Positions 13,745 through 18,178 of a DNA stretch of 64,000 nt are shown in pieces. Below the pieces are notes generated by a model. That model ran no database searches and was not told the origin of the DNA. It saw nothing but the letters and a program-made list of their open reading frames with translations. Position 1 is the stretch's first letter, and every line of letters starts with the position of its first letter. The position numbers and the translations under genes are program-made. Source of the stretch: Pyrococcus kukulkanii (GTDB lineage: Archaea; Methanobacteriota_B; Thermococci; Thermococcales; Thermococcaceae); NCBI RefSeq assembly GCF_041647995.1, contig NZ_JARRIB010000001.1, positions 186,001 through 250,000 of the forward strand. The letters run 5' to 3'.

Positions 13745-13840
13745 CAGAGTTTAAATGCCAAAGTCATAGTACCCAAGGCTATAATTGTAATCTCTAACTA
13801 AGGACCCATAACAGAAGCTGTAGCACTAAAAAATTTGACA
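13745..13840 (-). pseudogene. Decayed copy of the C terminus of the neighbouring 111-residue membrane protein gene
   Basis: Read on the minus strand, this noncoding stretch gives FCYGSLVRD and then, after a one-base shift, ITIIALGTMTLAFKLW followed by a stop. The intact gene at 14234-14569 ends ICYGTLVGKVSLRDITIIIVLGATTLAFELW plus four residues. The similarity is clear at base level too: about 50 bases around 13745-13795 align with 14246-14297 at roughly three identical bases in four. The copy has lost a few codons (GKVSL), is out of frame, and has no start. It is best read as the remnant of a tandem duplication. Confidence 0.75.
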
Positions 13841-13855
13841 CTCTTATTTTTCATC

Positions 13856-14222
13856 CTAAATTGTGTTCCCTATTTTTTGTTTACCTAATATGAGAAGCAT
13901 CAAAACAAAGAAAGCTCCAATCACAGCCGCCTCTATATACATCCTTGAATATTGAACATACCCCAGCAGATACGAGACACTAGCCCATATAAACTCTACC
14001 AGAACCGCCAATAAAATTCCAAGAGTTATCTTATTTTGTTTCCATAAGGCAAAAGATATCAAAAATGGAGCTAACAAAACAGAAGAAGCTATTATGAGTC
14101 CCTTTCCAACTATTGAGAATAGGATTCTTTTCAAACTCTCCAGTAACAATTCCACTGTATCCAGTAAATAAGAGAATGAAAACAAAAGCTAAAGTTCCAA
14201 GAGCAAATTTCCTCCCTCTCAT
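13856..14222 (-). pseudogene. Small membrane protein gene interrupted by a frameshift
   Basis: A start at 14222 (MRGRKFALGTLAFVFILLFTG) has an excellent GGGTGGGAGG ribosome site. However, its frame drifts into a non-hydrophobic tail and stops at 14031. The overlapping minus frame from about 14150 to 13856 continues with membrane helices (GLIIASSVLLAPFLISFALW, ITLGILLAVLVEFIWASVSY, AAVIGAFFVLMLLI) but has only an unsupported TTG start. Joining them by one frame change around 14100-14160 gives a plausible 120-residue protein with four helices. Either a real frameshift mutation or a sequencing error would explain this. Confidence 0.55.
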
Positions 14223-14233
14223 TTCCTCCCACC

Positions 14234-14569
14234 CTAAGATCCCGAATATCGCCAGAGTTCAAAGGCTAGAGTTGTAGCACCCAAAACTATAATTATAGTT
14301 ATATCCCGAAGACTAACCTTCCCAACTAGGGTTCCATAGCAAATGACAAACGTTACAAAGATGAGTAAACCGAACATATAAGAGACAAAGACATTTGAAA
14401 TTTTTCTCCAAATCAGCCATATTATGCTCCACATTACAAAAGAAACTAGGATGGCTAATAACACTAAAACAAGTACGTTGCTACTTTTTTTAACCGCCAA
14501 AAAAGTAAGTAGTATGGTAAAAATTAAAGGGAGATAGAAATTAAAATTCTTCCTTTTAGTGCCTACCAT
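14234..14569 (-). CDS. Small polytopic membrane protein of unknown function
   Basis: The product is 111 residues starting MVGTKRKNFNFYLPL, almost entirely hydrophobic, with about four membrane helices. A GGGGGGTTAGG sequence precedes ATG 14569, which lies 11 bases after the stop of the cysteine-rich protein gene. The two are therefore very likely co-transcribed. The C-terminal segment DITIIIVLGATTLAFELW also survives as a relic at 13745-13840, so this gene or its family was once duplicated here. I do not recognise the family. A role with the upstream cysteine-rich secreted protein, such as export or self-protection, is inference from position only. Confidence 0.65.
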   Translation of the reverse strand: MVGTKRKNFNFYLPLIFTILLTFLAVKKSSNVLVLVLLAILVSFVMWSIIWLIWRKISNVFVSYMFGLLIFVTFVICYGTLVGKVSLRDITIIIVLGATTLAFELWRYSGS

Positions 14570-14580
14570 TCCTAACCCCC

Positions 14581-15273
14581 CTATGGCCCAGGAACCCATC
14601 CTCCTTTACATTCTGAACCAAATTCCAAGCAATTATTCTGAACACACCATGGACATTCGACTTCAAGGCACACTATACAAAGGAAAGGATTCACACATGT
14701 AAATATGCACCACGAGCAACATTGAGCTGCCTTTTCGGTATCAACTTTACAGCAGAATTTATGACAATAGTGAGTAATCGGACAGTCGAAATCTGAATTA
14801 CATTCATGGGGACAGGTATCAGTAGTGCTAACAACTTCATTCGTCGTCACCGCTATAGTCTTTGCAGTTACGTTGTCAACCATTTTAATGAGAAAACCTT
14901 CAGTCTTTATACCTCTAACAGGATCTGAAAATTCATAAAGCACTGCTACATGCTTTCTATCCCTTAATGGAATGCCCATGGCAAGCATTGTTATATTCTC
15001 GCCCTTGTACTTGAGAGTATGCTTAACGACCTTTACATGAGAGTAGTCAACGTTCCAAGGTTTAGCCAACTTCCAAAAATCCCTACTGGTCACAAGTTTG
15101 AAGAATACATGAACCCTTGACCAATTTTCCTGAACTCTACTTACTGGCTTCACTACAGCAAATGGGTTTACACAGCCTTCAACCTTTGGATACTTAGGAT
15201 AACTTACGACATAAGAGGCGTACGCTCCAACAAGGAGAAGGGCCACTATACCCCCTAAAATTGCCTTCCTCAT
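14581..15273 (-). CDS. Secreted cysteine-rich protein, halocin-C8-like layout
   Basis: The product has 230 residues from ATG 15273, chosen because GGGGAGGACAT precedes it. Residues 1-25 form a signal or anchor helix (AILGGIVALLLVGAYASYVV). Residues 30-150 are a soluble domain with one cysteine (C34). The tail contains 16 cysteines between residues 154 and 222, in patterns such as DTCPHECNSDFDCP, FCCK, QCCSWCIFTC and CLEVECPWC, alternating with hydrophobic residues. A leader domain followed by a compact Cys-rich peptide recalls the halocin C8 precursor, but I cannot show homology. Alternatives are a disulfide-stabilised surface protein or a metal-binding protein. It is followed by two small membrane protein genes on the same strand. 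Confidence 0.7.
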   Translation of the reverse strand: MRKAILGGIVALLLVGAYASYVVSYPKYPKVEGCVNPFAVVKPVSRVQENWSRVHVFFKLVTSRDFWKLAKPWNVDYSHVKVVKHTLKYKGENITMLAMGIPLRDRKHVAVLYEFSDPVRGIKTEGFLIKMVDNVTAKTIAVTTNEVVSTTDTCPHECNSDFDCPITHYCHKFCCKVDTEKAAQCCSWCIFTCVNPFLCIVCLEVECPWCVQNNCLEFGSECKGGWVPGP

Positions 15274-15476
15274 ATGTCCTCCCCATAATGTTCTTGCAAT
15301 TAATTTCATGGATTTTATAATATATAACCTTTTCTCTTGAAAATTATCAAGATATTGCAAATTTTAATAGAAGACTTTTTTAAGTAGTAATTATCTTCGA
15401 TCAATATCGAAATGTTCAAAAGACTTTTATACACAACTTAGTATACATTACTGTACAAACGTCAATGGTGGTTCTT

Positions 15477-16844
15477 ATGGAGGCCTTGGAAAAAGCCCTT
15501 CGCTGGGCCGAGGAAAATATTAAAGCAGAGTACATCGAGCTGAGATACGAGAACCTCAAGAAAACAACGCTGAACCTTAAAGATGGAGTTTTCGTGAGCT
15601 TTACTGAAAAGCTAACCAGGGGCGTTGCCATTAGGGTTCTCGCAAATGGAGCCTGGGGCTTCTCTTCCACGAGTGATCTAGGCAGGCTAGAGGAAGCAAT
15701 TAAGGAGGCATATAAACTTGCAAAGGCCGCGGCAGAAACAAAGAAGGAGAAGATAAAGCTTGCAGAGATAAAGCCCGTGGAGGACTACGTTAAGAGCAGG
15801 ATGAAAGTCAAGCCCAGGGAAGTCGACATAGAAGAAAAAGTTAGCCACCTCAGGGAGCTTGAGAAGCTCCTCAAGGAAGATGAGGCAGTAAAGAGCGTTA
15901 ACATAAGGTACGAGGATGGAGGAGGCCAGAAGATACTCCTAACCAACGAGGGAACAAGAATAGAGTGGGACTACAACTACCTCTACCAAGGAGTCTACGT
16001 TACCGGAAAGGAAGAGGGAAGATTGGCTATGGCAAGGGATAGCATCGGGGCCGTTGACTACGGCTGGGAGCTAATGACGGAGAAGGAACCAAATGAAAAG
16101 GTAAAGGACAGGCTTTTGAGGAAACTACACTCTCAGCTTGAGGGAGTTGCCCCCAAGAGGGGAGAGTGGCCAATAGTTGCTGGCCCGATAGTCGTCGGGG
16201 TTATAGCCCATGAAGCACTCGGCCACCTAGCTGAGGCTGACCTCACTATAAACTCACCATTCAAAGATCTCATGGGCAAGCAGATTGCTCCAGAGTTCGT
16301 AACGATGAGCGAACGCTACGTTGAGGGAGGCTTTGGAAATGACAAGTACGACGATGAGGGAGTGCCAGTTAAGGACATCCATATAATAGAGAACGGAATA
16401 CTGAAGGAGATAATGCTGAACAGGGAGTACGCTGCAAAATGGGACATGGAGCCAAACGGCCATGCAAGGGCCCAGGACTACAGGTATCCACCGATAATAA
16501 GGATGAGGAACACGATCTTTGAGCCTGGGGACTGGTCATTTGAGGAGATGATAGAGGACATCAAGTTCGGTTACTACGTTGTAGACTTCAGGGGAGGACA
16601 GGCCCAGCTCAACTCAGCATTCCAGGTGGGAATTCAGGAAGGTTATGTGATAAGGAACGGAGAGATTGCAGAGCCGATAAGGGATACTTCAATCACGGGA
16701 GTTGCAATTGAGGCCCTGAAGAAGATAACGGCAGTAGGTAAGGACTTCGGGCTTGAGGTCGGATTCTGTGGAAAGGGACAGACGGCATTTGTTAGCTCAG
16801 GCGGACCCCACATGAGGTTCGATGGAGGAATTCTCATCGGGTGA
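15477..16844 (+). CDS. tldD: TldD-type metalloprotease subunit
   Basis: TldD and its partner TldE form a heterodimeric metalloprotease that degrades unfolded short peptides; in bacteria the pair processes microcin B17. The product has 455 residues from ATG 15477, which has GGTGG upstream. The active-site motif HEALGH (HExxxH) lies near residue 245 in GVIAHEALGHLAEADL. The C-terminal region VGFCGKGQTAFVSSGGPHMR carries the conserved cysteine of the family. The tldE gene follows immediately, so the complex is encoded as one unit. Confidence 0.95.
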   Translation: MEALEKALRWAEENIKAEYIELRYENLKKTTLNLKDGVFVSFTEKLTRGVAIRVLANGAWGFSSTSDLGRLEEAIKEAYKLAKAAAETKKEKIKLAEIKPVEDYVKSRMKVKPREVDIEEKVSHLRELEKLLKEDEAVKSVNIRYEDGGGQKILLTNEGTRIEWDYNYLYQGVYVTGKEEGRLAMARDSIGAVDYGWELMTEKEPNEKVKDRLLRKLHSQLEGVAPKRGEWPIVAGPIVVGVIAHEALGHLAEADLTINSPFKDLMGKQIAPEFVTMSERYVEGGFGNDKYDDEGVPVKDIHIIENGILKEIMLNREYAAKWDMEPNGHARAQDYRYPPIIRMRNTIFEPGDWSFEEMIEDIKFGYYVVDFRGGQAQLNSAFQVGIQEGYVIRNGEIAEPIRDTSITGVAIEALKKITAVGKDFGLEVGFCGKGQTAFVSSGGPHMRFDGGILIG

Positions 16845-16849
16845 TGGAG

Positions 16850-18178
16850 ATGGAGGAGCTGATTAAGTACGGTGAGAAGTTTTTTGACGAACTTGAGATA
16901 GTCGTGCAGAGGGGAAGGGACGTAAGCGTCGAGGTTGAGCTGAACGAAATATCGATAGCCTCAACAAGAACGAATGTCGTCACGATAATCAGGGGAATTA
17001 AGGATAAGAGGATCGGAATCGCCATAATAGACACCGCCGATGAGGAAGAAGTGAAGAGGGCCATAGAATCAGCAGCAAAGATGGCCAAGCTTAACAACCC
17101 CGATGAAAAGTGGCACTCCCTCCCAAGCCCAGGAAAGTATAGGGAAAAACCAAAGGTTAACGAAGAGCTAAAGGAGGTCTCACCAGATAAGCTCGTTAAC
17201 TTCGTCCTCGAAGGAATAAAGCTAGCTAGAGAGAAAGATGAGCACATAACAGTGGCCGGAGGATCCGCGGGAGCTTCTTGGGTTGAGGTCGGAATTTACA
17301 ACTCCCAGGGAATAAGCGTAACTCAAGAGCTCGGTCAATCACATCTGTTCTTCGAGTTCGTTGGAAAAAAGGAGGGTGTAGTTACCCCAGGTATATTCGA
17401 GTTTGACGCTAAAGATAACCTTAACTTGGACGTTGAAGGGGTAGTTGAGAAAGGCGTGCAAAAGGTTCAGTGGGCCTATAAGGTCAAGGAAGCAAAGAAC
17501 GAGGAAGTACCAATAATCTTCGGCCCCTGGGCAACGTCAGGGTTGTTATTTTACGCACTCTTCCCGGCCTTCAGCGGTGAAAGGTTGGTAAAGAAGACTA
17601 CACCACTAGCTGATAAGGTTGGGGAGAGCATCGCGAGTGAAGTTATAACGATGTACGATGACACATTCCATGAACTGAGCATAGCTAAGGCCGTGTTTGA
17701 TGGTGAGGGTGTTCCAACGAGAAAGACGATGCTCATAGAGAAAGGGGTATTCAAGGGGTTCGTGTGGGACAACTACTGGGCGAAGGTCTACGGTACGGAA
17801 AGCACGGGGCACGGGCAAAGGGACTGGAGAGGAGGAGGTGTCAGCATAGGGCTCAACACGGTCGTCATTGAAAAGGGCAAGAGGTCACTTGAGGATATAA
17901 TTGGGGAAATTAAGCACGGCTACTTCGTCGATGGTGTTCAGGGTGCACACTCAAGCAATCCAGACAATGGTAACTTTGCCGTGACTGCAAATCCAGCTTA
18001 CCTAATAGAGGATGGAGAAATAGTTGGATCAAGCGTTTTCCTTATTGCCGGAAACATTTACGAGCTCTTGAAGCAGGCCACAGAAGTTAGCAAAGAGCAA
18101 AGAGCACTACCAGCAATGTACACGGTGATAACCCCATACATAAAGTTCGAAAACGTTAAGATCGCCGGAAAGAAGTGA
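16850..18178 (+). CDS. tldE: TldE/PmbA-type partner of TldD
   Basis: This is the non-catalytic partner in the TldD-TldE protease, 442 residues. It lacks the HExxxH motif but shares the fold, with the conserved segments STGHGQRDWRGGGVSIGLNT and HGYFVDGVQGAHSSNPDNGNF. I prefer ATG 16850 because GGTGATGG stands five bases before it. GTG 16841 and ATG 16844 are in frame and overlap the tldD stop, so the true start may be up to three codons earlier. The last 23 bases overlap the end of the opposing gene. Confidence 0.93.
   Translation: MEELIKYGEKFFDELEIVVQRGRDVSVEVELNEISIASTRTNVVTIIRGIKDKRIGIAIIDTADEEEVKRAIESAAKMAKLNNPDEKWHSLPSPGKYREKPKVNEELKEVSPDKLVNFVLEGIKLAREKDEHITVAGGSAGASWVEVGIYNSQGISVTQELGQSHLFFEFVGKKEGVVTPGIFEFDAKDNLNLDVEGVVEKGVQKVQWAYKVKEAKNEEVPIIFGPWATSGLLFYALFPAFSGERLVKKTTPLADKVGESIASEVITMYDDTFHELSIAKAVFDGEGVPTRKTMLIEKGVFKGFVWDNYWAKVYGTESTGHGQRDWRGGGVSIGLNTVVIEKGKRSLEDIIGEIKHGYFVDGVQGAHSSNPDNGNFAVTANPAYLIEDGEIVGSSVFLIAGNIYELLKQATEVSKEQRALPAMYTVITPYIKFENVKIAGKK

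Follow-up and report, generated by a model that had tools for sequence, protein, structure and literature searches.

The window, i.e., the whole stretch of 64,000 nucleotides of Pyrococcus kukulkanii DNA that was analysed, contains a gene for a small cysteine-rich precursor that is followed by genes for small membrane proteins (Table 1). The precursor had been described in the initial annotation as a 230-residue protein with an N-terminal signal or anchor helix and 16 cysteines in residues 154–222, which is borne out by the ORF and by a count of its residues. The tail cysteines are located at positions 154, 158, 164, 170, 174, 175, 185, 186, 189, 193, 199, 202, 207, 210, 215, and 222, and the only one of the 17 precursor cysteines outside this set is Cys34. 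The precursor is regarded as a real gene since its ATG is preceded by a TATA-like stretch and by a Shine-Dalgarno–like GGGGAGG, and since its frame is conserved across the family. The structure model of the protein is fairly confident, with a pLDDT of 83.7 and a pTM of 0.75. Herein, the N-terminal helix carries the sequence GAYA (residues 16–19), which fits a signal-peptidase-type site, cleavage being inferred. The end of the constant domain is set by the loss of similarity between tail types, at about codon 125. Its invariant Cys34 is part of the conserved motif GCVNPF and could serve in dimerisation, lipidation, or processing. Just 5' of the Cys-rich tail, an Asn-Gly pair is kept in nearly all members—the window strain having Asn-Glu instead—and possibly marks a turn or a site that is prone to cleavage at high temperature.

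The gene of the 111-aa membrane protein begins about 12 nt past the precursor stop on the same strand, and its ORF is intact, as annotated initially. The structure model of this protein is of low confidence (pLDDT 64.9). The frameshifted gene that had been noted behind it is likewise present but is not its relative. In the close relative L040, this gene forms one intact ORF of 123 aa. Its homologue is the type D partner, with an E value of 7e-22 for the L040 copy and an alignment in agreement. Hence, the second gene of the window is an orphan rather than another copy of the 111-aa gene. The window and L040 differ herein by single-base indels; either a true difference between strains or a mistake in the assembly may account for the frameshift. 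Because the second gene is an orphan type D partner, the prediction for the window strain is that it makes type A and once had, and perhaps lost, resistance to type D. Of the decayed copy of the 111-aa gene that had been proposed further downstream, the resemblance stands by eye: on the translated frame, the end of the fragment (...LEITIIALGTMTLAFKLW, followed by a stop codon) looks similar to the C-terminal part of the 111-aa protein (...LRDITIIIVLGATTLAFELW...). However, it extends over few codons only, and no strong match for it is found among the nucleotide BLAST matches listed.

Table 1. Position of the precursor gene, its parts, and its neighbours within the window.
Feature	Coordinates	Strand	Remarks
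Fragment similar to the 3'-terminal part of the type A immunity gene	13745..13815	-	about 20–25 codons; recognised by eye
Putative orphan immunity gene, type D, frameshifted	13856..14222	-	partner type of the L053, L057, and L058 tails
Small membrane protein cognate to tail type A, predicted immunity	14234..14569	-	111 aa; 4 predicted helices
Precursor gene	14581..15273	-	ATG start; 230 aa; stop codon included
Replaceable module, residues 125–230	14584..14901	-	beta hairpin and Cys-rich tail; tail type A
16-cysteine tail, residues 154–222	14608..14814	-	predicted disulfide-rich effector peptide
Asn-Glu in place of Asn-Gly	14836..14841	-	just 5' of the Cys-rich tail
Constant domain, residues 24–124	14902..15204	-	conserved across genera; includes invariant Cys34
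Codon of Cys34	15172..15174	-	
Hydrophobic helix, residues 1–23	15205..15273	-	signal peptide or anchor; model helix 2–23
Shine-Dalgarno–like GGGGAGG	about 15277–15283	-	5' of the precursor ATG; sequence inspection
TATA-like stretch	15312..15329	-	5' of the precursor; sequence inspection, no promoter assay
tldD–tldE pair	15465..18178	+	divergent from the precursor gene

Homologues of the precursor were found by protein search in 42 of 94 Thermococcaceae genomes, representing five of the six genera. A profile search over the phylum detects the family in 44 of 115 genomes, with none listed outside Thermococcaceae. Collections of plasmids, phages, and viral contigs yielded no relative; hence, no vector was found. 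Some of the loci come from fragmented metagenome assemblies. Conservation within the family extends over residues 1 to about 124, beyond which the protein is replaced as a block. For gene pairs that combine DNA-similar N-terminal parts with different tails, the similarity stops at codon 120–131 in 40 of 42 cases. The 28 intact members were sorted by hand into about 14 tail types according to pairwise tail similarity, and six of the types are represented in two or more genera. Clustering of the tails by phmmer at E 1e-3 was unusable because the shared cysteines chained nearly all members into one group. All 28 intact tails contain an even number of cysteines, ranging from 14 to 20; within type H, the tail of L079 has two cysteines fewer than that of L055. 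The chance of such an outcome is about 2^-14 when only types are counted and treated as independent. The even numbers would be expected of complete pairing and point, as far as can be predicted from sequence, to tails whose cysteines are all engaged in disulfides and thus to an exported or otherwise oxidised product. With a net charge of −3 to −12, the tails are acidic, which does not speak for a simple cationic peptide that lyses membranes. Precursor relics occur in L076 (G015) and L077 (G013), where an internal deletion fuses the first ~22 to the last ~28 residues; immunity genes are retained behind both.

Each of the 28 intact loci contains a small hydrophobic ORF directly 3' of the precursor gene, encoding a protein of 75–142 aa as called, with one to five predicted hydrophobic stretches. 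These partner ORFs were chosen by position and hydrophobicity. Partner similarity follows tail similarity (r = 0.77) as opposed to similarity of the N domain (r = 0.10), and the partial correlation of tail and partner given the N domain is 0.77, a value reached in none of 5000 permutations of a partial Mantel test (best 0.24). In this Mantel-type test, loci are treated as exchangeable and the N domain serves as a stand-in for phylogeny, which is not fully phylogeny-proof. Between different genera, pairs of the same type are on average 69% identical in the tail and 42% in the partner, compared with 37% and 25% for pairs of different types. A lack of linkage with the small membrane proteins in other genomes had been named initially as grounds for refutation; the linkage is present throughout the intact loci, and the identity of the partner tracks the tail type. 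One exception to the pairing is L050, in which a type H tail (normalised similarity about 0.65) is followed by a different first downstream gene. In addition, some partners of the same type are highly divergent, as for the window and L041 with about 24–32% identity and likewise for L043 within type B.

The exchange of tail and partner as one cassette can be followed in several loci. L079 and L061 share common DNA up to nt 502 of the precursor gene. Past this point, L079 continues with a type H tail and its partner and then with a stretch that shares 93% identity with the type C partner region of L061, where this region lies directly 3' of the precursor gene. In L059, remnants of the former type C tail lie behind a type F cassette, as does one more membrane gene. 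The remnant of the displaced Cys-rich tail (CYGACARGDVWACGTC...) is located at +763 to +933 after the precursor ORF. The type F partner also occurs in L055, being 95% identical to the copy of L059, without the type F tail. Partner genes are moreover kept at decayed precursors, with L063 holding four types (I, A, B, and E). In L118, type A and type N partners are situated between TldD and a cupin gene, the usual site of the locus; no precursor was found in this genome.

Scans of the precursor and of the membrane proteins against Pfam and NCBIfam gave nothing convincing. Among the sequences of solved structures, the only match is the non-significant one to omwaprin (E 0.45), and a Foldseek search of the precursor model against the PDB returned no match (best E 0.37). 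Since neither protein matches a curated family or a solved fold, no known toxic domain can be assigned. The family is without a name in the libraries searched and may be listed as a candidate in the survey of archaeal toxins by Makarova et al. 2019 (mBio). With neither a recognised toxin domain nor a dedicated secretion module found by the family-library and structure searches, the locus is filed as working like a polymorphic toxin system and an archaeocin, by analogy and with a putatively new class of effector.

The constant and variable halves, the sharp breakpoint, the even cysteine numbers, the co-variation of tail and partner, and the displaced and orphan partner genes are observed. Herein, the criteria of a polymorphic toxin are met by the conserved N-terminal region with its exchangeable C-terminal modules, by the displaced modules, and by the orphan immunity genes; that of a type-specific gene directly downstream is met with the exception of L050. 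The locus is thus very probably a polymorphic toxin/immunity system of the archaeocin-like kind, for which activity data are lacking; secretion, cleavage, killing, and the membrane target are inferred. In this system, the N-terminal helix would export the precursor, and the conserved domain of ~100 residues would carry or protect the C-terminal module. The type-specific effector would be an acidic, disulfide-locked, and partly hydrophobic C-terminal peptide of about 70–90 residues that is probably freed by proteolysis near the tail and may act on related archaea without the partner gene. The small membrane protein encoded by the next gene would shield the producer, most simply in the membrane where the peptide is presumed to act; action at this site is inferred from the hydrophobicity of all partner proteins, which probably reside in the membrane. 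A change of weapon would occur by recombination of a new tail-plus-immunity cassette just past the constant domain, and the older immunity genes left behind would form an array through which resistance against the other types persists. Of the initial proposal, in which the locus encodes the precursor of a peptide toxin or signal together with immunity proteins in the membrane, the general outline is hence supported by the tail-tracking partner genes. The tail, however, does not match the halocin C8 model, and the N-terminal half is unlikely to confer type-specific immunity.

The N-terminal helix could also be an uncleaved anchor. The Cys-rich domain would then be displayed and, together with its type-specific membrane partner, form a polymorphic surface pair for self/non-self recognition or adhesion without killing. 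For VARTIG of Thermococcales, which is hypervariable too, recognition and conflict both remain possible (PMC8416519). It resembles the present family by its hypervariable C-terminal region and by variable downstream membrane proteins that track the variant; however, VARTIG is a large protein of multiple immunoglobulin domains, whereas the precursor is a Cys-rich protein of 230 aa without an Ig match in Pfam. A recognition pair is considered unlikely, since it needs both partners, whereas orphan partners of several foreign types are kept after loss of the precursor, which fits resistance better. Even less support exists for a polymorphic peptide pheromone with a membrane sensor or exporter, the cassettes diverging as in pherotypes. 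A secreted variable peptide and a linked variable membrane protein would be expected for it as well, and the co-variation test cannot separate an antidote from a receptor. Nevertheless, the partners are small, with few predicted hydrophobic stretches, no sensor kinase or regulator was seen travelling with the cassette, and it would be harder to account for arrays of orphan sensors. A peptide of 70–90 residues with 7–10 disulfides is moreover unusual for a pheromone, so that this reading appears very improbable. The very high cysteine content would also agree with a Cys-rich surface protein that binds metal or has a structural role, the small membrane proteins being its assembly factors. This reading is hardly tenable, as even cysteine numbers in 28/28 tails, non-Cys residues that turn over strongly from one type to the next, and replacement in blocks are unexpected for a metal protein.

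The polymorphic toxin/immunity system that is preferred here has close parallels in bacteria. Constant N-terminal parts with an exchangeable C-terminal module, a cognate immunity gene directly 3', displaced modules, and orphan immunity genes are features that the locus shares with the CDI/Rhs systems (PMC3150448) and the T6SS effectors of Vibrio cholerae (PMC5361080). It differs from them by its tiny precursor of about 230 aa, the lack of a recognised delivery machine, an effector that is a disulfide-rich peptide and not an enzyme domain, and immunity proteins that are membrane-embedded. If the reading is right, hyperthermophilic archaea are engaged in a strain-level arms race with disulfide-rich peptides, and a case would be at hand, outside bacteria, in which weapons are exchanged by replacing cassettes and resistance is retained. 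The family would further offer about 14 peptide/immunity pairs ready for tests in genetically tractable Thermococcales and a source of presumably very heat-stable peptides.

The precursor gene is arranged divergently from tldD–tldE at a distance of about 200 bp in about 22 of 41 loci; in other genera, the locus lies elsewhere. TldD/E takes off the leader of microcin B17 in Escherichia coli (PMC5810440). The locus resembles this system in that tldD–tldE adjoins the precursor gene but differs from it in that no modification enzymes were seen at the locus, where the family libraries gave no match. That the linked TldD/TldE matures the peptide by trimming its N terminus after release is possible but unlikely: TldD also occurs without the locus (L091), and together with the placement of the locus elsewhere in other genera, this means that inheritance at one site explains the linkage equally well. 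If maturation by TldD/TldE did apply, an archaeal role of this widespread pair, for long unclear, would be the maturing of a disulfide-rich polymorphic toxin, and the toxin class would be unrelated to any known archaeocin.

Among archaeocins, the halocin C8 family (TIGR04449) is similar by its Cys-poor N-terminal half, Cys-rich C-terminal peptide, and small membrane genes nearby, and it had been drawn on for comparison initially without a claim of homology. The present family differs by its 14–20 cysteines as opposed to 10 in the mature peptide, a different N domain, and a less hydrophobic tail. TIGR04449 at its cut-off of 24 bits matches none of the 28 members. The model does find true members in 6 of the 94 Thermococcaceae genomes at other loci, and four genomes (G016, G049, G059, and G070) hold both this family and halocin C8-like genes. 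A profile comparison of the tail with halocin C8 scored 10–18, roughly level with column-shuffled controls, which reach up to 13.9, and the positive control scored only 21. Membership is not detectable by the curated model; because the profile comparison is weak even for its positive control, a very distant link cannot be excluded. The N-terminal half is also unlikely to act as a type-specific immunity domain on the model of the halocin C8 precursor, since it does not change with the tail type, unlike the downstream gene. Tail cassettes also occur in Thermococcus halocin C8-like loci, as seen in one of them (L104:116-2472 on the minus strand), which contains an apparent silent cassette. Herein, a partial gene at 513–1007 contains a second copy of the part that precedes the tail in the toxin gene at 1492–2472 and continues with a different Cys-rich tail, and each of the two is followed by its own membrane gene. 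Cassettes thus seem to be exchanged in the same manner in two peptide families without detectable homology.
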